NCBI GenBank assembly: GCA_017540505.1
Contig: JAFYAW010000013.1
Location: forward strand, 1 to 37,361
Direction of reading: 5' to 3'
Length of the DNA: 37,361 nt
Source of the DNA: Bacteroidales bacterium
GTDB lineage: Bacteria > Bacteroidota > Bacteroidia > Bacteroidales > WCHB1-69
Under the pieces are notes generated by a model. That model did no database searches. It was not told where the DNA came from and saw nothing but the letters and a program-made list of their open reading frames with translations. Below, in pieces: positions 12,760-34,900 of the stretch. The stretch's first letter is position 1; each line of letters opens with the position of its first letter. Position numbers and translations under genes: made by a program.

Positions 12760-13485
12760 TTACAAATTCATGGCAATGTCGGCAAAGTCGTACACGCCGG
12801 GATGCCCCTTGAGCCATACCGCCGCCTTCACCGCTCCAAGGGCGAACCCCTGACGGCTGTGTGCCTGGTGGATGATGACGATGTCGTCCTCCTCCGAATG
12901 CCAGCGCACCTGATGGATGCCGGTCACCGAACCCTCGCGATGGGCCATGACGGGAATGGCATCCTCCGGCACGGGCGTACCATCGGCGAGCTGCCACCGC
13001 TGATAGCGCGACACCTCCGACAGCAGGCCCTTGGCCAACGTGACCGCCGTGCCGCTGGGCGCATCCTTCTTGGTCACATGATGCGTCTCCTCAATGCCGG
13101 CCTCGTACTGGGGCTCCTTGTCCATCCAAGCGGCCAGTTGCCGGTTGAGCTGCATGAAGATATTGGCCCCCACGCTGAAATTGGACCCGTACACTAACGA
13201 GCCGCCATGCTCACGGCACAACGCCTCCACCTCCGGCAGATGCTCCTGCCATCCGGTGGTGCCAACCACCACGGGGACATGGTTCTCGAAACAGCGGCTC
13301 ATATTGCGCACCGCCACCGACGGCATGGAGAAGTCAATGGCCACATCCGCTGTGAGGAATGCCGGCCAGCGGGCCGACCACTCCGCCTCATTGTCTATAA
13401 TGGCCACAATCTCATGGCCGTCGCGACGCAGCAGTGCCTCAATCTGACGGCCCATTTTACCATATCCTAACAGAGCGAATTTCAT
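12760..13485 (-). CDS. dapB: 4-hydroxy-tetrahydrodipicolinate reductase
   Basis: DapB reduces 4-hydroxy-tetrahydrodipicolinate with NAD(P)H in the diaminopimelate/lysine pathway in the cytoplasm. The N-terminal Rossmann motif is seen in MKFALLGYGKMGRQIE. The family signature with the catalytic His and the substrate-binding Lys is visible as EETHHVTKKDAPSGTA at about residues 144-159. At about 241 residues it is slightly shorter than the E. coli enzyme, as is usual in this phylum. The start is 13485 or the adjacent ATG at 13488; a TTG at 13494 is less likely. It is flanked by DUF5683 and lepB in the usual Bacteroidetes order. Confidence 0.94.
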   Translation of the reverse strand: MKFALLGYGKMGRQIEALLRRDGHEIVAIIDNEAEWSARWPAFLTADVAIDFSMPSVAVRNMSRCFENHVPVVVGTTGWQEHLPEVEALCREHGGSLVYGSNFSVGANIFMQLNRQLAAWMDKEPQYEAGIEETHHVTKKDAPSGTAVTLAKGLLSEVSRYQRWQLADGTPVPEDAIPVMAHREGSVTGIHQVRWHSEEDDIVIIHQAHSRQGFALGAVKAAVWLKGHPGVYDFADIAMNL

Positions 13486-13511
13486 CATTTCCAAAATTTA
13501 TCATTAAAATT

Positions 13512-14090
13512 TCACCAACGCAGCTGGAAGCTGACGCCATAATACATCGTATTCCGCGCCAGACAGGGCATCACAGAGGGTGTCCACCGCAACGAAAGGT
13601 CATCGGAAACATCGAAATAGTAGAGATGCGCATCCACCATGGCGTCAATGATATTCAACGTGTATAAGATGGCCGTGATGCCGATGGCGATTTCCAGATT
13701 ACGCCGGTAATCGTTTTTCAGCTGGATGATGTTCTCATTCTCATAGTGGGCATAATCAGGGTTGAGCAGCTCCGTATTGCCGTCTCGCCGGTTGATATAC
13801 TCATTCCGGAACGAGAGCATCTTATCCGCCGAATAGTAAACAAAATAGCCGGATGCGGCCAGCGTGCCATACACGATGGGCAGTTTCCAGTACTTGCGAT
13901 TGTAAATCTGCCCGCCACCAGGGATGATGGACAACAGCATGGCCGTAGTAGGACTGTGTTTGGCCACCTTGACCGAATCTTCCGACTTCACCTTCCCGAC
14001 CGGTTTCCGGGACGTAAGCGTATCCTGCGCATCCAGGCACTGGAACGCCGTCACCAACAAAACCAGGAATAAAGCCGTTTTCCGAAACAT
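13512..14090 (-). CDS. DUF5683 family membrane protein
   Basis: About 192 residues from the ATG at 14090; a GTG four codons upstream is possible. It has an N-terminal signal peptide (MFRKTALFLVLLVTAFQCLDA), a polar linker, then the DUF5683 domain with the signature SPTTAMLLSIIPGGGQIYNRKYWKLPIVYG. At least two further membrane helices follow (about 70-90 and 133-150). The family is common in Bacteroidetes next to parB and dapB, but its function is not established. Here it is in exactly that position, 26 bases upstream of dapB and 40 bases downstream of parB. Confidence 0.88.
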   Translation of the reverse strand: MFRKTALFLVLLVTAFQCLDAQDTLTSRKPVGKVKSEDSVKVAKHSPTTAMLLSIIPGGGQIYNRKYWKLPIVYGTLAASGYFVYYSADKMLSFRNEYINRRDGNTELLNPDYAHYENENIIQLKNDYRRNLEIAIGITAILYTLNIIDAMVDAHLYYFDVSDDLSLRWTPSVMPCLARNTMYYGVSFQLRW

Positions 14091-14130
14091 GGGTCCTAAC
14101 ACTTGGATAAGAAACGCTGATTTCGGGGTA

Positions 14131-15006
14131 TTATTGTAGGATATCTATTATATGCTTCAACTCCTCATCGGAAGCGAACGGGATCGTAATAACACCTTTG
14201 CCGGAAATATCCTTTTTGATGTTTACTTTGGTTTTGAGTTTCTTGGAAATATCGGTTTGGAAGTTCCGGACTTCATCCGAAAGGGTGATTTTCACCTTTG
14301 TTTTCGGGGTTTTGTCTTCGGAAAGGAGTTTCTTCACTAAGGATTCAGTCTGCCGTACCGACAGGGATTCCTGGATAATCTGCTTCACGATGCGGTTTTG
14401 CAGCAGCTCGTCCTCCACCATCACCAAGGCGCGGGCGTGCCCCGTGGAGATGAGATTGTCGCGCACGGCAATCTGCACGTCCGTGGAGAGCTTGAGCAGG
14501 CGCAGATAGTTGGAGACCGTGCTCCTGTCCTTGCCCACCTTCTCGCTGAGTTCCTCCTGACTGAGGTGGCACTCCTCTATCAGCTGCTGATAGCAAACGG
14601 CGATTTCAATGGCGTTCAGATCCGAACGCTGGATGTTCTCCACCAGCGCCATCTGGATGGAGCGGGCATCGTCCACCGTGCGCACGAATGCGGGGATCTC
14701 CGTGAGCCCCGCCAGCTTGGCGGCACGGAAACGGCGTTCGCCGGAGATGAGCTGGTACTTGCCGTTCTCAATGGGCCGGACGGTCACCGGCTGAATCAGG
14801 CCATACGTCTTGATGGAGGCCGCCAGCTCCGCTAACTCCGCCTCGTCGAACTTGGTCCGAGGCTGGTAGGGGTTGGCCTCTATGGAGTCGATCCGTATAA
14901 AGCTGTTACTACCGGACACGTGCTGGTTGGAAGACCCTTTGGGGATTTCGGCACCGCCCAACAGGGCTCCCAGACCGCGCCCGAGGGGTTTGTCGTTCTT
15001 GGTCAT
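14131..15006 (-). CDS. parB: Chromosome-partitioning protein ParB
   Basis: ParB/Spo0J is a CTP-dependent clamp that loads at parS sites near the origin and acts with ParA in chromosome segregation. The 291-residue protein has the N-terminal GRGLGALLGG segment that contacts ParA. The ParB/Srx CTPase domain spans about 36-130, with box motif NPYQPR at 45-50 and GERRFRAA at 89-96. A helix-turn-helix parS reader lies in SQEELSEKVGKDRSTVSNY (about 148-166), followed by a C-terminal dimerisation domain. It starts 12 bases after parA. No parS palindrome was found in the window. Confidence 0.95.
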   Translation of the reverse strand: MTKNDKPLGRGLGALLGGAEIPKGSSNQHVSGSNSFIRIDSIEANPYQPRTKFDEAELAELAASIKTYGLIQPVTVRPIENGKYQLISGERRFRAAKLAGLTEIPAFVRTVDDARSIQMALVENIQRSDLNAIEIAVCYQQLIEECHLSQEELSEKVGKDRSTVSNYLRLLKLSTDVQIAVRDNLISTGHARALVMVEDELLQNRIVKQIIQESLSVRQTESLVKKLLSEDKTPKTKVKITLSDEVRNFQTDISKKLKTKVNIKKDISGKGVITIPFASDEELKHIIDILQ

Positions 15007-15018
15007 AATCGTGTTTGT

Positions 15019-15792
15019 TTAAATAGTATAACCGTTCTTCAGAAGGAACTCCTTGGCCAGATTCAGATAGTTGATGTTGCCTCTCGACTGCACATCGTAC
15101 AGCACGATGGGCTTCCCGAAGCTGGGAGCCTCGCTCAGGCGCACGTTACGGGAGATCACCGTCTCGAACACAATGCCTTTGCAATGCTGTTTCACATCGT
15201 CCACCACCGCATTCGAAGACTTGTACCGCGAGGTGTACATCGTGAGCAGGATGCCCTCGATGGCCAGGTCGGGGTTCATATTCGACTGGATCAGGCGGAT
15301 GGTGTTCAGCAGTTTGCCGAGGCCCTCCAAAGCGAAATACTCGCACTGGACGGGAATGATGACCGAGTCGGCGGCCACCAGCGCGTTCAAGGTGATGAGG
15401 CCGAGCGACGGGGCACAGTCGATGAAGATGAAATCATAGTCGCCCTTGAGAGCATACACCGCGTCTTTCATACGATACTCCCGACGGTCGAACGAGATCA
15501 TCTCGATTTCCGCACCCACCAGGTCGATGGTGGCGGGCAACAGGTCCAAATGCGGGATCTTCGTCTTCTGTATGGCTTCCGTCGCCATACGGTTGCCGAT
15601 CATGCAGTCATAAACGCTGACACTCTCCTCGTCGGGTTCGAAACCCACACTGCTGGACGCATTTGACTGGGGGTCCGCGTCAATCAGCAGAACATGGAAG
15701 TCCAGCACCGCCAGCGAGGCGGCCAGGTTGACGGCGGTGGTCGTCTTGCCCACCCCACCCTTCTGATTCACTATGGCGACAATCTTACCCAT
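15019..15792 (-). CDS. parA: Chromosome-partitioning ATPase ParA
   Basis: This 257-residue ParA/Soj-type ATPase drives origin segregation together with ParB. The deviant Walker A motif KGGVGKTT is at residues 11-18 and the Walker A' segment LLIDADPQSNAS at about 35-46. Walker B is FIFIDCAPSLGL. The short form without an N-terminal DNA-binding domain is the chromosomal type. The start codon overlaps the stop of the upstream PUR gene by one base (TAATG), indicating translational coupling. It is followed by parB after 12 bases. Confidence 0.95.
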   Translation of the reverse strand: MGKIVAIVNQKGGVGKTTTAVNLAASLAVLDFHVLLIDADPQSNASSSVGFEPDEESVSVYDCMIGNRMATEAIQKTKIPHLDLLPATIDLVGAEIEMISFDRREYRMKDAVYALKGDYDFIFIDCAPSLGLITLNALVAADSVIIPVQCEYFALEGLGKLLNTIRLIQSNMNPDLAIEGILLTMYTSRYKSSNAVVDDVKQHCKGIVFETVISRNVRLSEAPSFGKPIVLYDVQSRGNINYLNLAKEFLLKNGYTI

Positions 15793-16130
15793 TATAATGT
15801 AAGGTCTAAATCGTCAAAATTCACGTCCACCTTCTCGTTATCGTCACGCATCTCGGGATCGAACATCGTCTCCTCGGGGACTTTGCCCGTGCGGATGAAG
15901 TCGATCACCCCAGCCAAGGCGTTCTGGAACTTGTCAAAATCCTCCTTATAAAGGAACACCTTGTGTTTTTCATAAAAGAAACCACCCGTATCCGCATTGA
16001 ACTTGCGCTTGCTCTCCGTAATGGTCAAATACAACTCTTCCGTTCTCGTACTTTTCACATCGAAAAAATACGTTCTCTTACCGGCCTTCACGGCGCGCGA
16101 TAAGACTTCATTCTTCTCTTGATTTTCCAT
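15792..16130 (-). CDS. PUR-domain (DUF3276) nucleic-acid-binding protein
   Basis: A 112-residue Bacteroidetes PUR/DUF3276 protein. The recognisable segments are GKRTYFFDVKSTRTEELYLT (about 17-36) and the KHKVFLYKEDFDKF region, consistent with a single PUR repeat that binds single-stranded DNA or RNA as a dimer. Its stop overlaps the parA start by one base, so it heads the par transcript. An acidic C-terminal tail (about residues 85-112) follows the fold. Cellular role in this phylum is not well established. Confidence 0.9.
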   Translation of the reverse strand: MENQEKNEVLSRAVKAGKRTYFFDVKSTRTEELYLTITESKRKFNADTGGFFYEKHKVFLYKEDFDKFQNALAGVIDFIRTGKVPEETMFDPEMRDDNEKVDVNFDDLDLTL

Positions 16131-16170
16131 TTTTTTATGTTTTTAAGTGTTCTGTCTAAAATAATTATAC

Positions 16171-18099
16171 CTATTTTCTTCTGTTCTGCTGCTCCTTCAG
16201 CATCTTGGCCTGCTGTTTCTGCATCTCCTCCATCTTAAGCTGCCATTTGGACTTCTTCACCGGTTTCTTCATGTTCTCCTGCAACTGCGCACGCAGTTTG
16301 TCCTCATTCACCGCAAAGCGGAAGATGAACATCTGTAGGAAGGTGGCCAAGTTGAACAGGAGATAGTAATAGGTCAGTGCGGAAGAGAAATTGTTGAACA
16401 TGAAGAGGAACATGATCGGCATCATGTACATCATAATGTTCATCATCCGCTGCTGGTCCTTGTTGCCCTGAGCGGGACTCATCAGCTTGTTGTTCAACCA
16501 GGTGTAAACAATGGTGGCGATAGTCATGAGGATGGTGAAAAGGCTCATGTGGTCGCCGTACAGCGGCACCCTGTGGCCGAAATCCCAGATGGAGTCATAC
16601 GTGGAGAGGTCCTCCGCCCAGAGGAACGACTTCTGCCGCAGCTCGTATGCCGCCGGGAAGAAGCGGTACATGGCAATCAGGATGGGCATCTGGAGCAGCA
16701 TGGGCAGACATCCGCCGGCAGGGCTCACGCCCGCGCTCTTGTAAAGACTCATGGTGGCCTGCTGCTTCTTCATCATGTCCTCCTCCTTGGGATAACGGGC
16801 GTTGATGGCCTCAATCTCCGGCTTCAAGGCACGCATCTTGGCCGACGACATGTACGTCTTGTAACTGACCGGCAATACCACTATTTTTATAAAGATAGTC
16901 AGAATCAAAATAATGAGGCCGTAATTCAAGCCGTAAGCCTCCAACCAGTTGAAAATCGGGATAATGATGAACCGGTTGATCCAGTGCAACAGGAAGAAGC
17001 CCCAACCCAGAGGCACCTGACGCTCCAGTTTCATGTTATAGCCCTTCAGCAGACGGTACTGGTTCGGGCCCACATACATCGACATGCCAAAAGATCCCTT
17101 GTTCAGGTCGGGCATCTCGAAATCCAGCGTGGCCGAGCAGTTTTTCAGCACCGATGTCTCCGACTTGTCCGGTGACGAGACCTGCAGCGTGGCTGAGCTG
17201 AACGGTCTGTCGTCCACAATCAGACAGGTGGTGAAGAACTGCTGCTTGAACGAGACCCACTTCAACGGGGAGGTGAAATCCTGCTGGGCATCCTTGCGCT
17301 CGTCCAGATTGGACACATCGTCCGTATTATCCATATAATAAATGGACGTGAGGTTCTTTTCCGTCTCATAATTTTTCTCCACCGTCCGGGGTTGGGCGGT
17401 CCACTCCAGCGTATAGTCGTGCTTGCTCGCATAGAGGTATTTCTCCATGTTCACAAAACGGATCTTATAGGAAAAACGGTAGTCGTCGGGAGTGAACGTG
17501 TATAAGTACTCGATATAGGAAGTGGCATCCTGTGTCTGGCAGGCAACCGCATCGCCTGTAATATTGGGATAGATGCGCAGCGACAGCGTATTGTTCTTGT
17601 CGTCCACCACCAATGTGTCCGCCTCCTCCGACAGAAAATAGCAGTCGCGGGTATTGAGCTCCGTCTGGTCGTGGAGCATCAGCTGGATGCCCATGTCATT
17701 CGAGCCGTCCTCGAAGAGCACCAGCGGCAACTTGGCCGAATCCTTCGGCGTATAACGGTAAACGTCTTTCAGCATGGCCTTGCGAAGGCATCCGCCCTTC
17801 TTGCTGAAATAATAGATTGCCTTGTTGGTCTCCACCACATAGTCACCCGTATCGGCAATTTGGGGATTGGAAAACTGTTGTACGGCTGTTAGGGCCGGGT
17901 CGGAGGCGGCTGTTGCTGTTGCCGCCGTGTCTGTCGTCAAGGATAGTGCAGTCGTGTCTTCAGCCTGTCTCGCAACCTGCTCTGCCAACTGTTTCTCCTG
18001 CGCCTCTCTGATCTTCTGATTCCGATTCGTCTGATAAAAGCTAAAGCCCAAAAACAAAAGGAAAATCAAAAGTAATCCAATGACTGTATTCTTATCCAT
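16171..18099 (-). CDS. yidC: Membrane protein insertase YidC
   Basis: YidC inserts and folds inner-membrane proteins with or without the Sec translocon. The protein has about 642 residues from the ATG at 18099 (MDKNTVIGLLLIFLLFLGFSFYQ), which is the first membrane helix; an in-frame TTG at 18123 falls inside the promoter box and is rejected. A large periplasmic P1 beta-domain spans roughly residues 60-360. It is followed by the conserved insertase core with five hydrophobic segments, including WGFFLLHWINRF, YGLIILILTI and the SAGVSPAGGCLPMLLQMPILIAMY region. The C-terminal tail is Lys/Gln-rich and likely binds ribosomes. A TATCTTTG box lies at 18121-18128. Confidence 0.96.
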   Translation of the reverse strand: MDKNTVIGLLLIFLLFLGFSFYQTNRNQKIREAQEKQLAEQVARQAEDTTALSLTTDTAATATAASDPALTAVQQFSNPQIADTGDYVVETNKAIYYFSKKGGCLRKAMLKDVYRYTPKDSAKLPLVLFEDGSNDMGIQLMLHDQTELNTRDCYFLSEEADTLVVDDKNNTLSLRIYPNITGDAVACQTQDATSYIEYLYTFTPDDYRFSYKIRFVNMEKYLYASKHDYTLEWTAQPRTVEKNYETEKNLTSIYYMDNTDDVSNLDERKDAQQDFTSPLKWVSFKQQFFTTCLIVDDRPFSSATLQVSSPDKSETSVLKNCSATLDFEMPDLNKGSFGMSMYVGPNQYRLLKGYNMKLERQVPLGWGFFLLHWINRFIIIPIFNWLEAYGLNYGLIILILTIFIKIVVLPVSYKTYMSSAKMRALKPEIEAINARYPKEEDMMKKQQATMSLYKSAGVSPAGGCLPMLLQMPILIAMYRFFPAAYELRQKSFLWAEDLSTYDSIWDFGHRVPLYGDHMSLFTILMTIATIVYTWLNNKLMSPAQGNKDQQRMMNIMMYMMPIMFLFMFNNFSSALTYYYLLFNLATFLQMFIFRFAVNEDKLRAQLQENMKKPVKKSKWQLKMEEMQKQQAKMLKEQQNRRK

Positions 18100-18120
18100 C
18101 TTTGCAATTTTAATCGGGTG

Positions 18121-18128
18121 CAAAGATA
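18121..18128 (-). promoter_or_regulatory. Putative -7 promoter box (TATCTTTG) for yidC
   Basis: The minus strand reads TATCTTTGC, an excellent TAnnTTTG match, 22 bases before the yidC start. The region upstream is a T-rich tract without a clear spaced TTTG. Confidence 0.6.
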
Positions 18129-18175
18129 CAAAAAAAAGAAAAATATTTTTGGTGTCCCTATTATTATTACAACCG

Positions 18176-18886
18176 TCACAAATCCTCCCGCACTAACAGC
18201 GGGCTTTCGGGAACCTGGTCGGGACGGAGAAAGCTGAAGAAGTAATTGGCGTCCGGGATGGATTTCACGGGACCGAGGCGGCTTTGGAGAGTGTCACGGA
18301 CCCTTTCGCGCTGGGAGATGCCCAAGGCCACGCACATAGTCTTGAGGAAAGTCTGCGCCTCTTCGGAAGACTCCTCCCCCAGCAAGCCGGAAATGTCACG
18401 GACCGACAAACGGGCCTCCCCGGCGAGCACATCCAGCACATCCGACACGTCCACGCCGCGGTTGCAGGAGAGCAGCAGCAGGTAATCATAATCCGCATAG
18501 TCGCAGGGGAACAGACGGGAGCCCTGTTTGTTGAACAGATAGAAATCCTCCTCAAACATGGAAAAGCCCAGCAGCGGGAAACGGATAGCCTGGTCGTCAT
18601 TGGCCTCCGACACCTTGTTCGGCATGAAGAGCATACGCACATCCCCTAAGCTGTTCAGACAAGCGTCGAACACAGGGAACATCTTGTCCGGTTGGTCAGC
18701 GATGGGGCTGTGGTTCTCCAAAAACACAAAATCCCGATGGAACAGATGTGTCAGCGTGTCAGCGAACTGCAACGGGGCCTGGTCCGACAGTGCCAGCAGG
18801 AGATAGTAATCCCGCGACTTGCCGAAATCATCCAGCCAGCCCACCTTGGTTTCCTTCGGGACATTCAGTTTTATCAGTTTGGCCAT
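18176..18886 (-). CDS. Uncharacterised cytoplasmic protein
   Basis: A 236-residue protein with no signal peptide or membrane segment. It is acidic and rich in Leu, Asp and Phe. An N-terminal region (KETKVGWLDDFGKSRDYYLLLALSD) is followed by alternating strands and helices. Similar IPF_1986-type hypothetical proteins exist in Bacteroidetes, but I cannot assign a domain. A TATCTTTG box ends only 9 bases before the start codon, so either the transcript is nearly leaderless or translation begins at a later codon. Upstream lies a run of ten G and a heptamer-repeat spacer. It lies upstream of yidC on the same strand, 76 bases away, with the yidC promoter between them. Confidence 0.8.
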   Translation of the reverse strand: MAKLIKLNVPKETKVGWLDDFGKSRDYYLLLALSDQAPLQFADTLTHLFHRDFVFLENHSPIADQPDKMFPVFDACLNSLGDVRMLFMPNKVSEANDDQAIRFPLLGFSMFEEDFYLFNKQGSRLFPCDYADYDYLLLLSCNRGVDVSDVLDVLAGEARLSVRDISGLLGEESSEEAQTFLKTMCVALGISQRERVRDTLQSRLGPVKSIPDANYFFSFLRPDQVPESPLLVREDL

Positions 18887-18894
18887 TACGGCGG

Positions 18895-18902
18895 CAAAGA
18901 TA
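18895..18902 (-). promoter_or_regulatory. Putative -7 promoter box (TATCTTTG) very close to a start codon
   Basis: The minus strand reads TATCTTTGC, a good TAnnTTTG match, ending 9 bases before the ATG at 18886. Transcription would begin about two bases from the start codon. Confidence 0.5.
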
Positions 18903-18929
18903 CGGAATTTTCAATTAACAGGTGCTGGA

Positions 18930-18939
18930 GGGGGGGGGG
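18930..18939 (+). repeat. Homopolymer run of ten G
   Basis: Ten consecutive G lie 28-37 bases upstream of the -7 box of the gene at 18176-18886. Such tracts are prone to slippage; the length could also be a sequencing artefact. Confidence 0.8.
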
Positions 18940-19083
18940 CGATTTGCGATTCGCGATTTTCGATTTACGATTTGGGGATTAGGATTTTGTTCTTTGTTCT
19001 TCGGTCTTTGGTCTTCGGTCCTTAAACTTTCACCAAACAAATCACAAAGCGCAAACCGTAAACCGCAAATCGTAAATCGCAAC
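18939..19083. repeat. Degenerate heptamer arrays in inverted arrangement
   Basis: 18939-18974 consists of about five tandem 7-base words (GCGATTT, ACGATTT and variants). 19038-19080 holds about six words of the complementary family (AAATCGC, AAATCGT, AAACCGT and variants). The two arrays could pair as a long imperfect hairpin. The segment between them also has a 7-base period, with words such as GTCTTTG and GTCTTCG. It fills the gap between two minus-strand genes and shows no coding potential. Confidence 0.8.
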
Positions 19084-27485: not shown

Positions 27486-28841
27486 ATGACAATCGACAAA
27501 AACCAACGCGCCCTGGCCCAACTGTCCGCCATCTACCGGCCCGGCACGCTCAACCTCATCGGCGGACGCCCCGGAATGGGCAAGACCACCCTGGCTTTCT
27601 ATCTTGCGACGGAAGCACATCTGCCCACCGTCTATTTCTCCCTCGAAATGAGCAGCGACCAACTGCTGCTGCACCACGTGACCGGGAAATGCCCCGAATG
27701 GATTCACCTAGACGACACCGTGCCGATGACCGTGGAACTGATTCGCACGAAAGTGCACCAGCTGCAGAAAACCCAGAAAATCCGCTGGGTAGTTGTCGAC
27801 TACTTGCAATTGATGAGCTCGTCGCAGCCGTATTCGAACCGCACAGACGAGATCGTTCTTATCATCAATGAGTTGAAGAAGATGGCCGGAGAACTCCAGG
27901 TGGCGGTCATCGTACTCACGCAGCTGATGCGCACGGTGGAGATGCGCGATGACCGCCGTCCCACCCTGCAGGACGTGTACAATTGGGACCGTATCGGAGA
28001 ATGGGTGGACGACGTGCGCCTGCTCCACCGCGACGAATACTACCATATTGTCGGTGGCAAAAAGAATCTGTTGGAGGTGCTGGCCACCGAGCGCGGGCAG
28101 GGCGGCGTCCCTGACCTGCAGCTGAAGTATCTGGGGTGGGACGCTTCGTTGACACTGAAACAGAACTTACAGGGGATATCGGACACGGACAAGCTCCGCA
28201 CGATGCTTGCCACTACCGAGGGCGAAATCCTCCGCATGGCCAAGCCCTTTGATGGCGACTTAGACTGGGACACGTACACCGGGAAGATTCTTGACCGAAT
28301 GTTAGAAGAGCGTGCCAGCATCCTCAACCGGATGTTTGAGTTGCACTGCACCGAGGCCGAGGTGCGCCGCTTCGAGCACGTGAACGATGCGCTGTTGAAG
28401 ATGATGAACCGATTCCACGAGGAGCAGCAACAGCTTCAGAAACAGTTGGATATGCTTCCCGACATCGGCGAGCACGGTGCCAACCGCTTATATCTGATCG
28501 GGGAAATCAACTATTGTCACGACCACGAGGACCCGAAGATCTTCCCGATGGAGGAGGATGCGTTTTACGGGTCGCACTGGAACGAGATGTTGTGGGCGGT
28601 GTCGTCGATCTCGCGGATGGACGCGCACACCATCCACAACGGCGAGTCCAACCACCTCGATGACGGCCAGACCTGGGCGGAGGGCCCGCTGTGCATCCCG
28701 CAGTTCGAGCATATCTGCGTCTGCTACCTTGCCCACGCCCTCTGCACGCACCTGCGCTACAGCATCCCCGACCTTCTTCGGATGACCACCTACACCTGCG
28801 AGCGCTCGATGTGGGAGATGTCGGAGGGAAAGGTTGATTAG
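27486..28841 (+). CDS. DnaB-like RecA-fold ATPase fused to an unknown C-terminal domain
   Basis: A 451-residue protein. Residues 1-225 match the C-terminal motor domain of replicative helicase DnaB: Walker A GGRPGMGKTT (26-35), FSLEMS (51-56), Walker B VVVDYLQLM (102-110), and VIVLTQLMRTVEMRDDRRPT with the sensor Gln. The DnaB N-terminal domain that binds primase is absent. Residues 226-451 are not DnaB. A helical, possibly coiled-coil part (about 280-330, rich in Glu/Gln/Leu) leads to a compact His/Trp/Cys-rich domain (SHWNEMLWAVSSISRMDAH, GPLCIPQFEHICVCYLAHAL) that I do not recognise. It is therefore an orphan DnaB-type ATPase, not the main replicative helicase. A -7 box lies 73 bases upstream. 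Confidence 0.85.
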   Translation: MTIDKNQRALAQLSAIYRPGTLNLIGGRPGMGKTTLAFYLATEAHLPTVYFSLEMSSDQLLLHHVTGKCPEWIHLDDTVPMTVELIRTKVHQLQKTQKIRWVVVDYLQLMSSSQPYSNRTDEIVLIINELKKMAGELQVAVIVLTQLMRTVEMRDDRRPTLQDVYNWDRIGEWVDDVRLLHRDEYYHIVGGKKNLLEVLATERGQGGVPDLQLKYLGWDASLTLKQNLQGISDTDKLRTMLATTEGEILRMAKPFDGDLDWDTYTGKILDRMLEERASILNRMFELHCTEAEVRRFEHVNDALLKMMNRFHEEQQQLQKQLDMLPDIGEHGANRLYLIGEINYCHDHEDPKIFPMEEDAFYGSHWNEMLWAVSSISRMDAHTIHNGESNHLDDGQTWAEGPLCIPQFEHICVCYLAHALCTHLRYSIPDLLRMTTYTCERSMWEMSEGKVD

Positions 28842-28899: not shown

Positions 28900-28983
28900 A
28901 GCCTCGCCAGAGCAGGCATCTACGACACCCTCGCCTGCATCAACGGCAGCATCGCCGAAGCGTACTACCAAGAGATCCCCGAG
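28885..28983 (+). pseudogene. Remnant of an ADP-ribosylglycohydrolase C-terminus (left copy)
   Basis: In one frame this short stretch encodes SLARAGIYDTLACINGSIAEAYYQEIPE, clearly homologous to the C-terminal active-site region of DraG/ARH-type ADP-ribosylglycohydrolases (SLGGDSDTLACITGGIAEAYY). The metal-binding GGDSDT is corrupted to AGIYDT, and no N-terminal part exists upstream. The last 61 bases are about 90% identical to the right copy at 30338-30398, with the ATPase gene between. It is a non-functional fragment. Confidence 0.7.
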
Positions 28984-29045
28984 GTGTCGGAGAGCAGAAA
29001 AAGTAAAATATTCCCCATTTCTGTTTCGCAAAATCAAAAAAAATG

Positions 29046-29053: not shown

Positions 29054-29084
29054 CGAAATAGAAACACTTTAACCATTGATTATT

Positions 29085-30287
29085 ATGAAGTTAATAGAAA
29101 GACCATCTTATCAGAAACGCATACAGCGAGTAAAAGGAACTCCCGACATCAAAGTGATTACGGGTGTGCGACGTTGCGGCAAATCAAAACTGATGGAGGA
29201 ATTTGCCAAAAGCATACGGGTTTCTGAGACTAATGCAAATATCATTCACATCAATTTCAACCTGCTGGAGTTTGAACCGTTGCTGGAATACCACAAATTA
29301 CATCAGTATGTGGAGAATGCCTATCAAAACGGTAAACACAATTACGTGCTGATTGACGAAATTCAGATGTGTGAGTCTTTTGAAAAAGCCATCAACAGCT
29401 TGCACGCCACAGAAAAATACGACATTTATCTGACCGGTTCTAACGCATTCCTGTTGAGCAGCGATCTCGCCACATTATTCACTGGCAGAACCTTTGAAAT
29501 AAAAGCATTTCCATTTTCTTTCCAAGAGTATCTGCAATATTTCGAATATGAGGACATTGAGAAAGCATTTTCGTTGTACACGGAAGAGGGAGGTATGGCG
29601 GGTTCCTATCTCTATTCAACCCCAAAAGAAAAGTACAGTTATATCAACGACGAAGTGTTCAATGCGCTTATCGTCAGGGATATCATTGCCAAATACAAGA
29701 TCCGGAATATCCCACTGTTGCACCGTCTTATAGACTTTATGATGGACAATATCGGCAACATCACATCTATCAGGAATATCGCCAACGCATTGATATCAAA
29801 CAAGATAAACACCAATGACAAAACCATAGGAACTTACATCGACTATCTTTGCAAGGCGTTTGCGTTTTACAGAATCCGCAGATATGACATTGCCGGGAAA
29901 CGCTATCTGACCAATGACGACAAGTATTACCTCGCCGACCACTCCTTCAGATATGCCCGCTTGGGTATGAAGAACCTTGACCGGGGACGGATTCTGGAGA
30001 ACATCGTTGCCATTGAACTGCTTCGACGGGGGTATGAGGTATATGTGGGCATTATGCACCGCAGTGAGATAGATTTTGTGGCCATGAAGCAGCACGAGAA
30101 GGTGTATTTCCAGGTGGCGGACGACATCTCAAACCCTGAGACTTTCAAAAGGGAAACCGATTCATTGCTGAAAATCAGAGATGCCTACCCAAAGGTTCTG
30201 CTTGCCCGTACCCGACAGCCTAATTTCACGCACGAGGGCATTCTCGTCTGCAACATTGCAGATTGGCTTCGGAGCGAAATAGGGTGA
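29085..30287 (+). CDS. AAA_14/DUF4143 ATP-binding protein
   Basis: A 400-residue protein of the large AAA_14-DUF4143 family; the ATG at 29085 is preferred over an in-frame TTG at 29076. Walker A is GVRRCGKS (27-34), Walker B VLIDEIQ (88-94), followed by the sensor segment YLTGSNAFLLSSDLATLFTGR. The C-terminal DUF4143 domain (about 200-360) contains HRSEIDFVAMK and YFQVADD, reminiscent of a PD-(D/E)XK nuclease core with Gln replacing Glu. The family is very common in Bacteroidetes and has no well-established function. Here it lies between two ADP-ribosylglycohydrolase scraps, and its stop is directly followed, in frame, by the right scrap. Confidence 0.92.
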   Translation: MKLIERPSYQKRIQRVKGTPDIKVITGVRRCGKSKLMEEFAKSIRVSETNANIIHINFNLLEFEPLLEYHKLHQYVENAYQNGKHNYVLIDEIQMCESFEKAINSLHATEKYDIYLTGSNAFLLSSDLATLFTGRTFEIKAFPFSFQEYLQYFEYEDIEKAFSLYTEEGGMAGSYLYSTPKEKYSYINDEVFNALIVRDIIAKYKIRNIPLLHRLIDFMMDNIGNITSIRNIANALISNKINTNDKTIGTYIDYLCKAFAFYRIRRYDIAGKRYLTNDDKYYLADHSFRYARLGMKNLDRGRILENIVAIELLRRGYEVYVGIMHRSEIDFVAMKQHEKVYFQVADDISNPETFKRETDSLLKIRDAYPKVLLARTRQPNFTHEGILVCNIADWLRSEIG

Positions 30288-30497
30288 CCTGCAGCGGAGA
30301 GTGCCGTCCGCTTAGCCGTCTCGCTCGGCGGCGACAGCGACACCCTCGCCTGCATCACCGGCGGCATCGCCGAAGCCTACTACAAAGAAATCCCCGAAGA
30401 GATCGCCCGCCAGATGTGGTCCCGCTTGCCGGAGACCTTCCGAGAGATTTTGCGGGAGATGAGGGGAAGGTTCGGGGGGACGTTGGGGGATTTGTAA
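30288..30497 (+). pseudogene. ADP-ribosylglycohydrolase C-terminal fragment (right copy)
   Basis: Sixty-nine codons in frame directly after the ATPase stop encode AVRLAVSLGGDSDTLACITG, then GIAEAYYKEIPEEIARQMW and about 30 more residues to a TAA at 30495. This is the C-terminus of an ARH/DraG ADP-ribosylglycohydrolase, with the binuclear-metal motif GGDSDT intact. There is no start codon in context and no N-terminal two-thirds, so it is a remnant. Such enzymes remove ADP-ribose from proteins or nucleic acids and are frequent partners of ADP-ribosylating toxins. Confidence 0.82.
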
Positions 30498-30526
30498 GAA
30501 GGAGGTGGAAGAAAAGGGGAAAGTTG

Positions 30527-30534
30527 TAGTTTTG
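30527..30534 (+). promoter_or_regulatory. Putative -7 promoter box (TAGTTTTG) for the DUF262 pair
   Basis: TAGTTTTGC matches TAnnTTTG, 48 bases before the ATG at 30583 and just after the pseudogene stop. No -33 match at correct spacing. Confidence 0.5.
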
Positions 30535-30582
30535 CGGCGGAGAAAACACGTCAACAATAGTTAAGAAATAAATAGTAATTAT

Positions 30583-32424
30583 ATGGCAGAGAATAAGGCA
30601 GAAAATAAAATTGAATTGAAATCGGTAAGCGAACTTCTTGGGATGAAGTTCTTTATACCAAGTTACCAACGAGGGTACCGTTGGACAGAACAGCAGGTGA
30701 AGGACTTGCTGGAAGACATTTGGGATTTTTCAAAAAAGAAAAAGCAGGAATATGTGTTTTATTGCTTGCAGCCATTAGTTGTTAAACGAAAGAATGAAGA
30801 TGTCTTAAATAGCATTAAAGCTGCGACTTCGATTGAAGAAGTTGAAATATTGTTAAAGGGTTCTTGGGAAGTCATTGATGGTCAGCAACGATTAACGACT
30901 CTATTCATAATACTTTCTGTGCTAGAAGAAAAATCTTTATATTCTATAGAATACGAAACTAGAAATGACAGTAAAGATTTTCTAAAAAATATTGACGAAA
31001 GCAAGAAGAATGAAAATATTGATTATTATCATATTTACCAGTCAAAACAAACCATATCATCTTGGTTCAACAATGATGAAGAAAAGAAAGCAAAATTCAA
31101 GAATATTCTTCTAAATAGTGTGAAATTCATCTGGTATGAATCAGTTGATGAAGACCCCATAAAAGTTTTCACCCGCCTCAATATTGGCAAAATTTCATTG
31201 ACAAACGCTGAACTTATCAAAGCATTGTTTCTAAACCGCTCAAACTTTGGAGAGAATGATTCTGAACATTTGAAACTGCGCCAACAGGAAATTGCCAGCG
31301 AATGGGATAAGATTGAATACACATTGCAAAACGACGAATTCTGGCTGTTCTTGCACGAAAAAGGCTATGACCGCCCTACAAGAATCGACTTTATATTCGA
31401 TTTGATTTGCGAGCAGAAACCTTTAGGGACATTTGACAACATCGGTACTGATGATTACAAAACTTTCCGCTATTTCTACGAGTATTTCAAATCAGACTCG
31501 TCGAACATTGAAGACTGCTGGAAAGAAGTAAAAAAATATTTCCAGACATTCAAAGAGTGGTTTGATGACTTGGAGCTATATCATTACATAGGGTATTTAG
31601 TCGAATATAAGCACTCAATATCGGGGCTCGTTTCTGAATGGCACAGCTCTAAGGACAAAGACTCGTTTGTAAGCTTTTTAAAAGCTGAAATAAAAAAGAA
31701 AATCAAAGGATGCCCTGCGCTTGATTTTCAATACAAAGAAGATGGTAGTGATAAAGGAAAATGCAAACCCATACTGCTTTTCCAAAACATTCAAACTATT
31801 ATCAATCAAAACAAAAACAATCTAAGCAACGAAGACTATAAATTGGGAGTGTTTTACAAATTCCCATTCCATTTATACAAACTTGAAAATTGGGATGTGG
31901 AACATATCAACTCTAACACCACAAACGACGAGGAAGATGCCGATATACAGAAAGAATGGCTATTGAATGTATATCTTAGTGCAGATGACGACACACAAAA
32001 AATAATACGGTCATTTTTTGAATCTTCAGAGGATGAAAAAGGGAAATTGTTTGAGAAAGTCAAGCAAATTATTCCGCAAAACGAAGAATGGACTTCCGCT
32101 GAGAAAAATAGGATATGGAATTACACTCTATTAGACTCTTCTACCAATCGCAGTTATGGGAATGCCATTTTTCCTGGAAAACGTCGCGTGATTATTGGTA
32201 AAGACAAAGGTTTGTCAATAGCCATACCCAAAATCAGCAAAGATGGAAAACTACAATTAGGAGAGGAACAGAAAGCTAAATCGTCTTTCGTTCCGCCTTG
32301 TACAAAACAAGTGTTTATGAAGTATTACTCTGCAACAATGAGTGACGCTAACTATTGGACAAAGATTGATTCGGACGGCTATTTGAAAGATATAGATGAT
32401 TGTATAAAAAAACTAGAGGAATAG
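30583..32424 (+). CDS. DUF262-DUF1524 protein, GmrSD-like
   Basis: A 613-residue protein. The N-terminal DUF262 domain shows FIPSYQRGYRWT (24-35) and the hallmark VIDGQQRLTT (97-106). DUF262 is a ParB/Srx-like nucleotide-binding fold. A second family motif, VFTRLNIGKISLTNAELIK, is at about 195-213. The C-terminus fits DUF1524, an HNH-type nuclease: WDVEHI with His441, then WNYTLLDSSTNRSYGN (512-527) and F530/K533. This is the GmrS-GmrD order found in type IV restriction of modified phage DNA and in related BrxU and SspE proteins. The gene is markedly more AT-rich than the genes before 28 kb. It ends three bases before the second DUF262 gene, so the two are one operon. Substrate preference is unknown. 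Confidence 0.88.
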   Translation: MAENKAENKIELKSVSELLGMKFFIPSYQRGYRWTEQQVKDLLEDIWDFSKKKKQEYVFYCLQPLVVKRKNEDVLNSIKAATSIEEVEILLKGSWEVIDGQQRLTTLFIILSVLEEKSLYSIEYETRNDSKDFLKNIDESKKNENIDYYHIYQSKQTISSWFNNDEEKKAKFKNILLNSVKFIWYESVDEDPIKVFTRLNIGKISLTNAELIKALFLNRSNFGENDSEHLKLRQQEIASEWDKIEYTLQNDEFWLFLHEKGYDRPTRIDFIFDLICEQKPLGTFDNIGTDDYKTFRYFYEYFKSDSSNIEDCWKEVKKYFQTFKEWFDDLELYHYIGYLVEYKHSISGLVSEWHSSKDKDSFVSFLKAEIKKKIKGCPALDFQYKEDGSDKGKCKPILLFQNIQTIINQNKNNLSNEDYKLGVFYKFPFHLYKLENWDVEHINSNTTNDEEDADIQKEWLLNVYLSADDDTQKIIRSFFESSEDEKGKLFEKVKQIIPQNEEWTSAEKNRIWNYTLLDSSTNRSYGNAIFPGKRRVIIGKDKGLSIAIPKISKDGKLQLGEEQKAKSSFVPPCTKQVFMKYYSATMSDANYWTKIDSDGYLKDIDDCIKKLEE

Positions 32425-32427
32425 ATT

Positions 32428-34830
32428 ATGAGCAACAATACAAAAGCAATATCTTTTTGGAATTTCTTGAAAGAAAGCACGATAGAAATTCCCATCATAC
32501 AACGCGACTATGCGCAAGGTCGATTAGGGAAGGAAAATTTACGCAAAACTTTTTTGGCCGATTTGAAAAAGGCTTTGGACAATGAGCACCCATACAAGGA
32601 CACACCCATGAAGTTGGACTTTGTTTATGGCTCAGCTGAAAACGGTAAACTGAATCCTCTGGACGGTCAACAACGCCTAACCACGCTTTGGTTATTGCAT
32701 TGGTATATCGCATTGCGTGCTGGAGAACTGAGCGAAGATGGTTGCAAGATTTTCAGAAAATTTACATACGAGACACGAATCTCTTCCCGTGAGTTTTGCC
32801 AGAATTTATGCGTCCCCGAATACTTTAAGGATTTTGACGGCAAAGACATTGTCGGTTTTATTGCCAAGCAGACCTGGCTCTATTCTGCTTGGAAGCAGGA
32901 TCCGACCATTCAATCAATGCTAAGAATGTTGGGCGGTACCAGAATTTCCGACAAAAAAGGAGAAGATATTGTTGATGGGATAGAAGAGATTTTCCAAGAA
33001 ACAAACGAAGACGGTTTCAAATCATATTGGGAAAAGTTAACCCAAAAAGAAACCATTGTGTTCTATCATCTTCCTCTCAAAGATTTCGGCTTGTCTGATG
33101 ACTTGTACATCAAAATGAACGCCCGTGGTAAGCAATTGACTAGTTTCGAGAATTTCAAGGCTGACTTGATTGGGTACATTACAAAACAGGCTGAAGATAA
33201 TCCGGAATCAGAATGGAAGAATCTTTTAGATGCTGAAAATGGAATTCCAATAAAGCTGGACACAGACTGGACTGATATATTTTGGAAGAACAAGTCCAAA
33301 GAAAGCAAAATAGATGAAATCTACTTCGCATTTATTAATAGATATTTCCTTCAGGAGTTAATCTGCGCCAAGAAAGAAGATAAAACAGACTTTTATTCTG
33401 CGGACAACCTTGAAAAGGAGAATGTTGCATTCAGACATCTGTATGGAGAAAAAAGTGATGATTCTCGGTTGCAATATTCCGGATTGGATAAATACCTGTT
33501 TAGTGACGGTAAAGCAATTCCACTTAATTTCTTCACTTCGCTTAGTGAAACATTTAATAATTTAAAACCAAATTTATTTGGTTGCAAGTTTTTTGGGGGA
33601 TGCTGTATTAATAATTATTTCCCAACTTGGGTTGACTCAAAATTTGAGTTTATTCCCCAATACGACGAAACAGGTAATATTACAACTTTAGGACAAAAAG
33701 AAAGAGTTGTTTTTCTCGCTATTTGCATGTATTTTGAAAAAGACAGCTTTGACGAAACTTCATTTAAGCAGTGGATACGAGTCGTTTGGAACATTGTGGA
33801 AAATTCTGGTATAGAAACAATTTCTGCAATGATTGGTGCAATGCGCTTAATTGATGGATTATCAGAGGGGGCGCACGATATTTATAATTTCTTATCAAAT
33901 TCACAACTACAAGTCAAATCCAATTTCGCCAAAGAACAAGTAGCAGAAGAAATTGCCAAAGCCAAGCAAATCCTATACGGAGCGCCTCGTTCAGATGGAA
34001 AATCTTGGGAAGAAATAATCATTGAGGCTGAGAAATACGCTTTCTTCAAAGGTTCGATACGATTCTTGTTTACTGATGGCGAAGGATACATCAATTGGTG
34101 TGACTTTGACAAGAAATGGACAAATGTAAAGAAGTATTTTGATAAGGATGGAGAAATAGTCGAAGAATATAAAACCAACGCCATATTATTGAGAGCGTTA
34201 TTAAGCCGAATCAATATTGGAGAAAATTGGTTTGGATATTATAGAGAGTTCTGGTACACATCTTTGTTGAAGAACGACTATCAAAGTGCCATCCATTACT
34301 TGCTAACCACGCTTCAATTAGATATAGACAATACATGTCCTCACGATTGGATAACCCACGATTCATTGCTTCAAAAACTTTTATGTTGTTACAATTCTTG
34401 GCACATTTTAACTAATTGGAATAATTACGATGTGTTAACTCGGTATTCTCAACGCAGGTCTGATGCAACTTCGCACAACGAAATTGTTGTGCTTAATGAT
34501 TTGCGCAACAGATTGCTTGCACATAAAGATATTGTAATATCACAAGTAAAGAAAGTGGAGGGGACCACTTATCTATACGGCTTGAATATCAATTTTTCAT
34601 ACAACAACCATTTCTTCCAATGGTATGGATCCTCAAATGATATAGAACTCGATATTTACCTTATGGAAAATGATTGGGCAGATTATAAAAAACGTCCCAA
34701 TCCTACATTCGACAAGAACACAGACGAAGACAAGTACTATTGTTTCAAGGTGGATGCGGCAGCGACACCAGATTCTTTCATAAAAGAGCTCGACAGCCTC
34801 ATAAAACAGGCAGAATCCGATCTGAGCTAA
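32428..34830 (+). CDS. Large DUF262 protein, second member of the pair
   Basis: An 800-residue protein with a distinct DUF262 variant at the N-terminus: EIPIIQRDYAQGR (20-32), LDGQQRLTTLWLLHW (78-92), and YIKMNARGKQLTSFENFKADL at about 226-246. The remaining 550 residues contain no DUF1524/HNH motif that I can see. They include aromatic-rich alpha-helical stretches and a late segment SHNEIVVLNDLRNRLLAHKD that may be a small helical module. It probably acts with the upstream GmrSD-like protein: the spacing is 3 bases and both share the same AT-rich composition, while a strong terminator follows directly. Whether it is a sensor, specificity subunit or second effector cannot be told from the sequence. 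Confidence 0.87.
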   Translation: MSNNTKAISFWNFLKESTIEIPIIQRDYAQGRLGKENLRKTFLADLKKALDNEHPYKDTPMKLDFVYGSAENGKLNPLDGQQRLTTLWLLHWYIALRAGELSEDGCKIFRKFTYETRISSREFCQNLCVPEYFKDFDGKDIVGFIAKQTWLYSAWKQDPTIQSMLRMLGGTRISDKKGEDIVDGIEEIFQETNEDGFKSYWEKLTQKETIVFYHLPLKDFGLSDDLYIKMNARGKQLTSFENFKADLIGYITKQAEDNPESEWKNLLDAENGIPIKLDTDWTDIFWKNKSKESKIDEIYFAFINRYFLQELICAKKEDKTDFYSADNLEKENVAFRHLYGEKSDDSRLQYSGLDKYLFSDGKAIPLNFFTSLSETFNNLKPNLFGCKFFGGCCINNYFPTWVDSKFEFIPQYDETGNITTLGQKERVVFLAICMYFEKDSFDETSFKQWIRVVWNIVENSGIETISAMIGAMRLIDGLSEGAHDIYNFLSNSQLQVKSNFAKEQVAEEIAKAKQILYGAPRSDGKSWEEIIIEAEKYAFFKGSIRFLFTDGEGYINWCDFDKKWTNVKKYFDKDGEIVEEYKTNAILLRALLSRINIGENWFGYYREFWYTSLLKNDYQSAIHYLLTTLQLDIDNTCPHDWITHDSLLQKLLCCYNSWHILTNWNNYDVLTRYSQRRSDATSHNEIVVLNDLRNRLLAHKDIVISQVKKVEGTTYLYGLNINFSYNNHFFQWYGSSNDIELDIYLMENDWADYKKRPNPTFDKNTDEDKYYCFKVDAAATPDSFIKELDSLIKQAESDLS

Positions 34831-34858
34831 CATTTCAAATCCGTTTCTTTCACCTCAT

Positions 34859-34887
34859 AGGTGCGTCATCACGGCGCACCTTTTTTT
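34859..34887 (+). terminator. Rho-independent terminator after the DUF262 pair
   Basis: A 7-bp perfect stem (AGGTGCG, 34859-34865, with CGCACCT, 34875-34881) and a 9-base loop run directly into seven T. It closes the DUF262 operon 28 bases after the stop. Confidence 0.88.
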
Positions 34888-34900
34888 ATGGAAAGGTTCC

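Follow-up and report, generated by a model that had tools for sequence, protein, structure and literature searches.

A tandem pair of DUF262 genes in a Bacteroidales bacterium, probably a GrwAB-like restriction system, follows the 3' end of an ADP-ribosylglycohydrolase gene

The two adjacent genes A and B probably encode a GrwAB-like type IV (modification-dependent) restriction system composed of two proteins. They are carried by a 37,361-nucleotide stretch of Bacteroidales DNA (the window, meaning the whole stretch analyzed) and are inherited together; NTPase-type motifs are conserved in both proteins and a His-Me nuclease signature is present in A (Table 1). The operon directly follows a 3' fragment of an ADP-ribosylglycohydrolase (ARH) gene, a position that is occupied elsewhere in the genus by other genes, several of restriction type.

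Table 1. Features of the A–B operon and its 5' surroundings (window coordinates)
Feature	Position	Strand	Description
Gene A	30583..32424	+	613 aa; DUF262 followed by a putative His-Me/DUF1524-type nuclease end
Gene B	32428..34830	+	800 aa; DUF262, then about 500 residues without a Pfam family
Terminator-like hairpin and T run, 3' of B	34859..34888	+	hairpin itself 34859-34881
-7 box TAGTTTTGC, 5' of A	30527..30535	+	within the repeated ARH 3' segment
ARH 3' fragment and downstream region	30297..30537	+	directly 5' of A; the slot
AAA_14/DUF4143 ATPase (PADLOC PDC-S01)	29076..30287	+	between the two ARH fragments; neighbor outside the A–B system
Second, shorter ARH 3' fragment	28903..28986	+	5' of the DUF4143 gene

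The layout of the operon agrees in most respects with the original prediction, which was made from the letters of the window. Three bases separate the A stop codon from the B ATG, a terminator-like hairpin and T run stand where a strong terminator had been proposed, and the unit is AT-rich as described, with a G+C content of 36.6% vs 51.8% in the remaining window; its flanks are likewise low in G+C (43.6% for the DUF4143 gene and 44.9% downstream). The operon had also been credited with a -7 box of its own. The word is present, but it belongs to the repeated ARH 3' segment and is not exclusive to the operon, and words of this type are frequent (18 in the window vs 8.75 expected).

Protein A matches the Pfam GmrSD_N/DUF262 family (E 3.7e-31). 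Its QR (29-30; Q29R30), DGQQR (99-103) and F196xxxN200 motifs are each invariant in the 69 aligned A proteins, as are E440-H441, N513, N522 and N527. The Pfam GmrSD_C model scores 17.3 bits on the window protein, below the Pfam cut-off of 23, and is matched at E<=0.01 by 30 of 66 A homologues. Of 112 A frames, including some truncated at contig ends, 107 carry an H...N..LL....N signature, vs one (strict pattern) or two (loose pattern) of 115 B frames, with one frame (L141, described below) counted in both sets. Searched against known structures, the A profile matched SspE (6jiv, E 4.6e-12), a DUF262 protein (9jfl, E 4.8e-14) and 7p9k (E 0.0049), which we take to be BrxU; SspE and 9jfl also gave weak matches at their C-terminal ends. 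The DUF262 match and the invariant histidine and asparagine residues support the proposed layout of a GmrSD-like DUF262 domain followed by an HNH/DUF1524 end, with GmrSD_C itself remaining below threshold. A carries a conserved His-Me nuclease signature, which marks a putative nuclease end.

Protein B also matches GmrSD_N/DUF262 (E 7.1e-20), and the mutual alignment of A and B is limited to the DUF262 part (157 columns in hhalign), consistent with their assignment to different subtypes. Its motifs are QR (25-26; Q25R26), DGQQR (79-83) and MNARGKQLT (230-238). DGQQR is kept in 69/69 aligned homologues and the third motif takes the form Y227xxxN231 in all 69. We found no Pfam family at E<=1 in residues 301-800 and no His-Me signature in window B, in agreement with the earlier description of a protein with its own motifs and no visible nuclease; B could hold a nuclease of another, unrecognised family. 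Searches of PHROGs and NCBIfam with whole B returned nothing informative, and in the PDB a sequence search gave no match to B alone and the best profile match had an E-value of 0.17. The part of B from about residue 600 onward is poorly conserved, and the stretch 326-400 is about equally variable. We considered a HEPN-like RNase motif in the C-terminus (RNRLLAH, 693-699) and rejected it, as the pattern occurs in only 10 of 69 homologues and its histidine is unconserved.

A B-based scan of bacterial and archaeal genomes returned 386 relatives, of which we kept the best 80. In 77 of these the gene immediately 5' of B, in the same orientation, is A; the other three begin at a contig end. The A-to-B gap across the 77 ranges from -104 to +16 (median -1). 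To counter the B-based selection of this set, we drew 295 genomes evenly from the order (threshold E<=1e-40). B was present in 20 of them and A stood beside it in all 20: upstream in 19, including G136, where A is a piece at a contig end placed from coordinates only, and in the same frame in one (G303), where A is incomplete. The prediction that the pairing would be conserved in other genomes is thus borne out by both sets. A was detected in 23 genomes of the order sample, and the three without B at this threshold comprise two fragments and one contig-end match.

The pair is also found in plasmid and viral sequences. Sixteen plasmid records, some nearly identical, carry B; 14 have an A match at most about 330 bases before it, one (NZ_CP136442.1) has 1.5 kb between A and B, and another has a DUF262 gene before B by annotation only. 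Twelve of 13 viral-contig loci hold the pair, the thirteenth (L140) being weak on both profiles and showing a TgvAB-like gene order, and neither A nor B had a match in annotated phage genomes. The distances between A proteins increase along with those between B proteins (r 0.82 over 66 pairs; null maximum 0.22). A resembles the window copy more closely than B does in 63 of 65 pairs, and the two exceptions (L005 and L012) hint at partner exchange. In the same-frame case (L141; contig C152 of G303), one frame of 1233 residues at a contig end covers the C-terminal portion of A together with the whole of B; it may be a fusion or a damaged gene. We set it aside as evidence of a natural A–B fusion: positions 1-147 of the A model are missing, and the contig ends there.

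Because the pairing is conserved and the slot elsewhere in the genus holds restriction-type genes, A and B very probably constitute, as originally suggested, a defense operon whose two proteins work together.

Systems with two DUF262 proteins in which both genes are needed have been published, namely TgvAB in 2024 (PMC11411939), GrwAB in 2025 (PMC12137116) and GmrSD-ECOR17 in 2025 (PMC12373910). Since these systems exist, the original prediction is out of date in holding that known DUF262 defense proteins work alone or with partners of other kinds, and the tandem pair, which it had put forward as a new arrangement, has precedents.

The closest of these by description is GrwAB of the Vibrio cholerae WASA lineage, in which GrwA is a DUF262-DUF1524 protein and GrwB a DUF262 domain followed by several unknown domains. 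GrwA and GrwB are both required, and the system restricts phages carrying modified DNA, targeting Queuovirinae, Tevenvirinae and some Markadamsvirinae; its activity is lost when GrwA R81, H431, N521 or N530, or GrwB R86, is altered (PMC12137116). Our comparison uses published gene order, motifs and residue numbers. As far as these published details go, both systems consist of two adjacent same-strand genes with the DUF262-DUF1524 protein encoded first, and DGQQR is found in both proteins of each, GrwA R81 corresponding to A R103 and GrwB R86 to B R83. Both nuclease-type proteins have a histidine and two asparagines nine residues apart, and H431, N521 and N530 of GrwA would correspond, by spacing, to H441, N513 and N522 of A. 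GrwB, like window B, has a long C-terminus without assigned domains or nuclease signature. The systems differ in that B has YxxxN where the published GrwAB motif is FxxxN, in the distance from the histidine to the first asparagine (90 in GrwA vs 72 in window A), and in host group and genomic slot. One homologue (L026) comes near the GrwA residues, with R85, H431, N522 and N531 and a histidine-to-asparagine distance of 91; none of the homologues has all of the exact GrwA and GrwB residue numbers.

TgvAB, encoded on V. cholerae VPI-2 and also treated in a review (PMC12409362), likewise comprises two DUF262 proteins, one of them with DUF1524. It is embedded in a type I restriction-modification (R-M) operon, and its nuclease-free gene comes first, the reverse of the order in the window (PMC11411939). 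A TgvA-like stand-in from a Vibrio aerogenes plasmid (L159) aligned with B over 43 columns only, which does not mark B as a TgvA-type partner and agrees with the description of GrwB and TgvA as distinct (PMC12137116). GmrSD-ECOR17 (GmrS1 and GmrSD2), which we compared by description only, is also a two-gene type IV enzyme with one partner lacking a nuclease, but here the nuclease-free protein is encoded first (PMC12373910). By these comparisons of order and motifs, the A–B operon is most likely a further member of the described GrwAB-like kind, the tandem arrangement itself being already known.

Another locus (L096; own genome, C40:62000-81000) contains further DUF262 genes. At 12768-18993, genes that we take from their sequence to be DpnII-like R-M genes lie beside two frames judged in the same way, one DUF262 (13964-15064) and one DUF1524-like (13389-13949), and this group is flanked by two 3' fragments of what we take to be a pyruvate:ferredoxin oxidoreductase-like gene. 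Elsewhere in the same genome, 6453-8129 encodes a GmrSD-like, single-chain DUF262 protein of 558 residues with an EHILPQ motif.

In the literature, DUF262 is described as sensing modified DNA and using NTP for control of DUF1524. In a GrwAB-like system, A and B would form a complex in which the variable C-terminal part of B would read the DNA modification or gate A, and A would cut the DNA. The operon would be one of several exchangeable cargoes, acquired at a position that follows an ARH 3' end, and the region downstream of ARH probably supplies its promoter. The earlier suggestion of a two-component sensor/effector arrangement survives insofar as the proteins likely work together. A plain division of roles is nevertheless too simple, because B keeps its DGQQR in all aligned homologues and the GrwB arginine matching that of this motif is essential (PMC12137116).

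Alternatively, A could act by itself as a conventional type IV enzyme of the GmrSD type, with B dispensable for DNA recognition and serving only to regulate or guard it, perhaps from phage-encoded inhibitors. A has the complete layout of a single-chain GmrSD, and its domain order equals that of single-chain GmrSD, BrxU and SspE. A guarding role would also accord with the suggestion that TgvA may counter a phage inhibitor (PMC11411939) and with the finding that certain GmrSD enzymes are inhibited by internal proteins of T4 (PMC12373910). The single-chain enzymes, however, act as one protein, whereas A comes with B: the partner is adjacent in 20 of the 23 genomes with A in the order sample, the rest being fragments or contig ends, and we saw no complete A without B in that sample. 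In the published systems, moreover, GrwA and GrwB are reported to be both required (PMC12137116), as are TgvA and TgvB (PMC11411939). We therefore regard an A that works alone as unlikely and favor the two-protein restriction system.

The genomic slot of the operon recurs within the genus. B matches (E<=0.001) occur in four of 40 genus genomes, and in all four the feature immediately 5' of A, in the same orientation and at a distance of 64-141 bases, is an ARH gene or ARH 3' end. The pairs in these genomes differ considerably: in the three other than the window pair, the A profile scores 349.9, 339.5 and 51.5 bits. ARH itself gave 29 matches in 18 of the 40 genomes, several of them 3'-terminal fragments. 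The ARH subtype, which we define as copies at >=78% identity together with fragments, a cut chosen after seeing the data, contributes 19 3' ends in 12 of 40 genomes, often as tandem fragments (window; L262-L269, L277, L278 and L280). The next gene at these 19 ends is an A–B-like pair in four cases, another two-DUF262 pair in one, McrBC in one and a PD-(D/E)XK_4-type gene in three, with one more behind a 209-aa gene. The remaining ends are followed by a DUF4143-type ATPase (six), a small gene and kinase (one), a DEDDh 3'-5' exonuclease that we call X (one) and an unknown 829-aa frame (one); likeness to scanned genes was the basis for naming four ATPases and one PD-(D/E)XK gene. None of eight more distant ARH copies, a set that leaves out the match in G009 C12, has a recognised restriction gene directly next to it; one of them (L273) has a 210-aa gene, then an unscanned 372-aa gene, then X, and another (L276) is cut by a contig end. 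The ARH slot thus looks like a local docking site for defense genes, and it is the more novel and the less certain part of our analysis.

Several observations bear on the surroundings of this slot. The other two-DUF262 pair (L268:4714-8371, in G015) has the TgvAB order, and its first protein consists of DUF262 followed by DUF7834. In the window, a protein with a DnaB-like helicase C-terminal domain is encoded at 27486-28841, 5' of the ARH fragments; related proteins are encoded close to ARH in L268 and close to X in L244, L245 and L246. An empty-site comparison through the downstream ion-channel gene found one close copy among the genus genomes searched (G021, 67%), with nothing else of the window in the surrounding 19.5 kb. 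A literature search returned, among the matches listed, no title on this slot, which is no proof of absence.

The immediate neighbors of the pair across its relatives are less telling. We took the 110 nearest ORFs of 214 collected, after dropping four near-identical loci, and found 16 copies of X, eight WYL, eight PLD-like and seven AAA proteins; six ORFs match IetA, four TRIP13, and HsdS and ThsA were each found once. PADLOC tallies did not separate these neighbors (134 families over 110 ORFs) from control ORFs of genus relatives (81 families over 68), and a type II R-M system is also present among the 68 controls. The expected enrichment near defense genes is therefore upheld by the restriction-type genes in the genus slot but not by nearest-neighbor tallies.

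The frequency of X raises the question of whether it is a third member of the system that processes cut ends. A same-strand copy of X is present at most 250 bases from the pair in 24 of 116 loci (5' of A in 19 and 3' of B in 5, with L084 and L149 being one place counted twice), an opposite-strand copy occurs in one more, and X is directly adjacent in four of the 20 order-sample genomes with the pair. When 102 A proteins, 22 of them with X adjacent, are placed on a quick tree, at least 19 changes are required, although 31 of its forks are weakly supported, so the X neighborhood has been gained or lost repeatedly. X was not found in the window, however, and the majority of pair loci lack it. It is also common elsewhere (129 of 295 order genomes), has mixed neighbors around 20 copies without the pair, and occurs directly behind ARH as well. 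A role for X as a component of the restriction system is accordingly quite doubtful, and X may be a docking gene instead.

The breakpoints of the ARH fragments allow a tentative reading of how the slot is filled. Eleven ARH 3' fragments start at ARH nucleotides 604-620 (seven), 635-651 (three) or 513 (one); some junctions are shared by descent, so that independent events are fewer than copies. The word GATTTYGAGAnYGCC is present at ARH nucleotide 604, or its equivalent, in seven of 11 copies when the pattern is slightly loosened, and all eight X genes checked have a similar word close to their 5' end. Three fragments are chimeras of an X 5' end and an ARH 3' end joined at the shared word, and because their flanks are alike they are probably of one origin; in each (L262:6531, L264:2757 and L265:5684), the first codons of X run into the ARH 3' end at GATTTTGAGACCGCC. 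The -7 box of A sits in the repeated downstream part of ARH, and seven of the 19 ARH loci examined each contain a single copy of the exact word GTTGTA[GA]TTTTGC[GA]G.

It is conceivable, though we hold this only tentatively, that the pair belongs, as one exchangeable module among others, to a cassette system that has so far escaped notice. Defense genes would dock behind the ARH 3' end, each module bringing or leaving the last ~200 bases of ARH with the downstream promoter, and the breakpoint would fall at or just after the 15-base word (encoding DFETA or DFESA) shared with X, which would serve as a second docking gene. We saw no recombinase gene in the modules read, so that the modules would be moved in trans. 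Insertion with long target duplication is reportedly a precedent for restriction genes. The shared word presumably codes for part of a catalytic motif in X, so its presence in both genes may be due to chance and exploited by ordinary recombination.

The pair might instead be a toxin-like or housekeeping DUF262 pair cutting DNA in a non-defense role, and the toxicity reported for induced co-expression of the two-gene GmrSD-ECOR17 (PMC12373910) speaks for this reading. It is nevertheless highly improbable in view of the patchy presence of the pair in the genus (4/40 genomes) and the order (20/295). Copies of the pair also occur in plasmid and viral-contig sequences, and its slot is one that McrBC and nuclease-type genes occupy as well.

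GrwAB-like pairs are not rare in the order, being found in 20 of the 295 sampled genomes, and they are strictly paired. The family is for these reasons a good subject for asking why such enzymes need a second DUF262 protein, with the variable C-terminal part of B as an obvious candidate for recognizing the DNA modification. The ARH slot would offer a way to find further defense genes by position in poorly studied bacteria.
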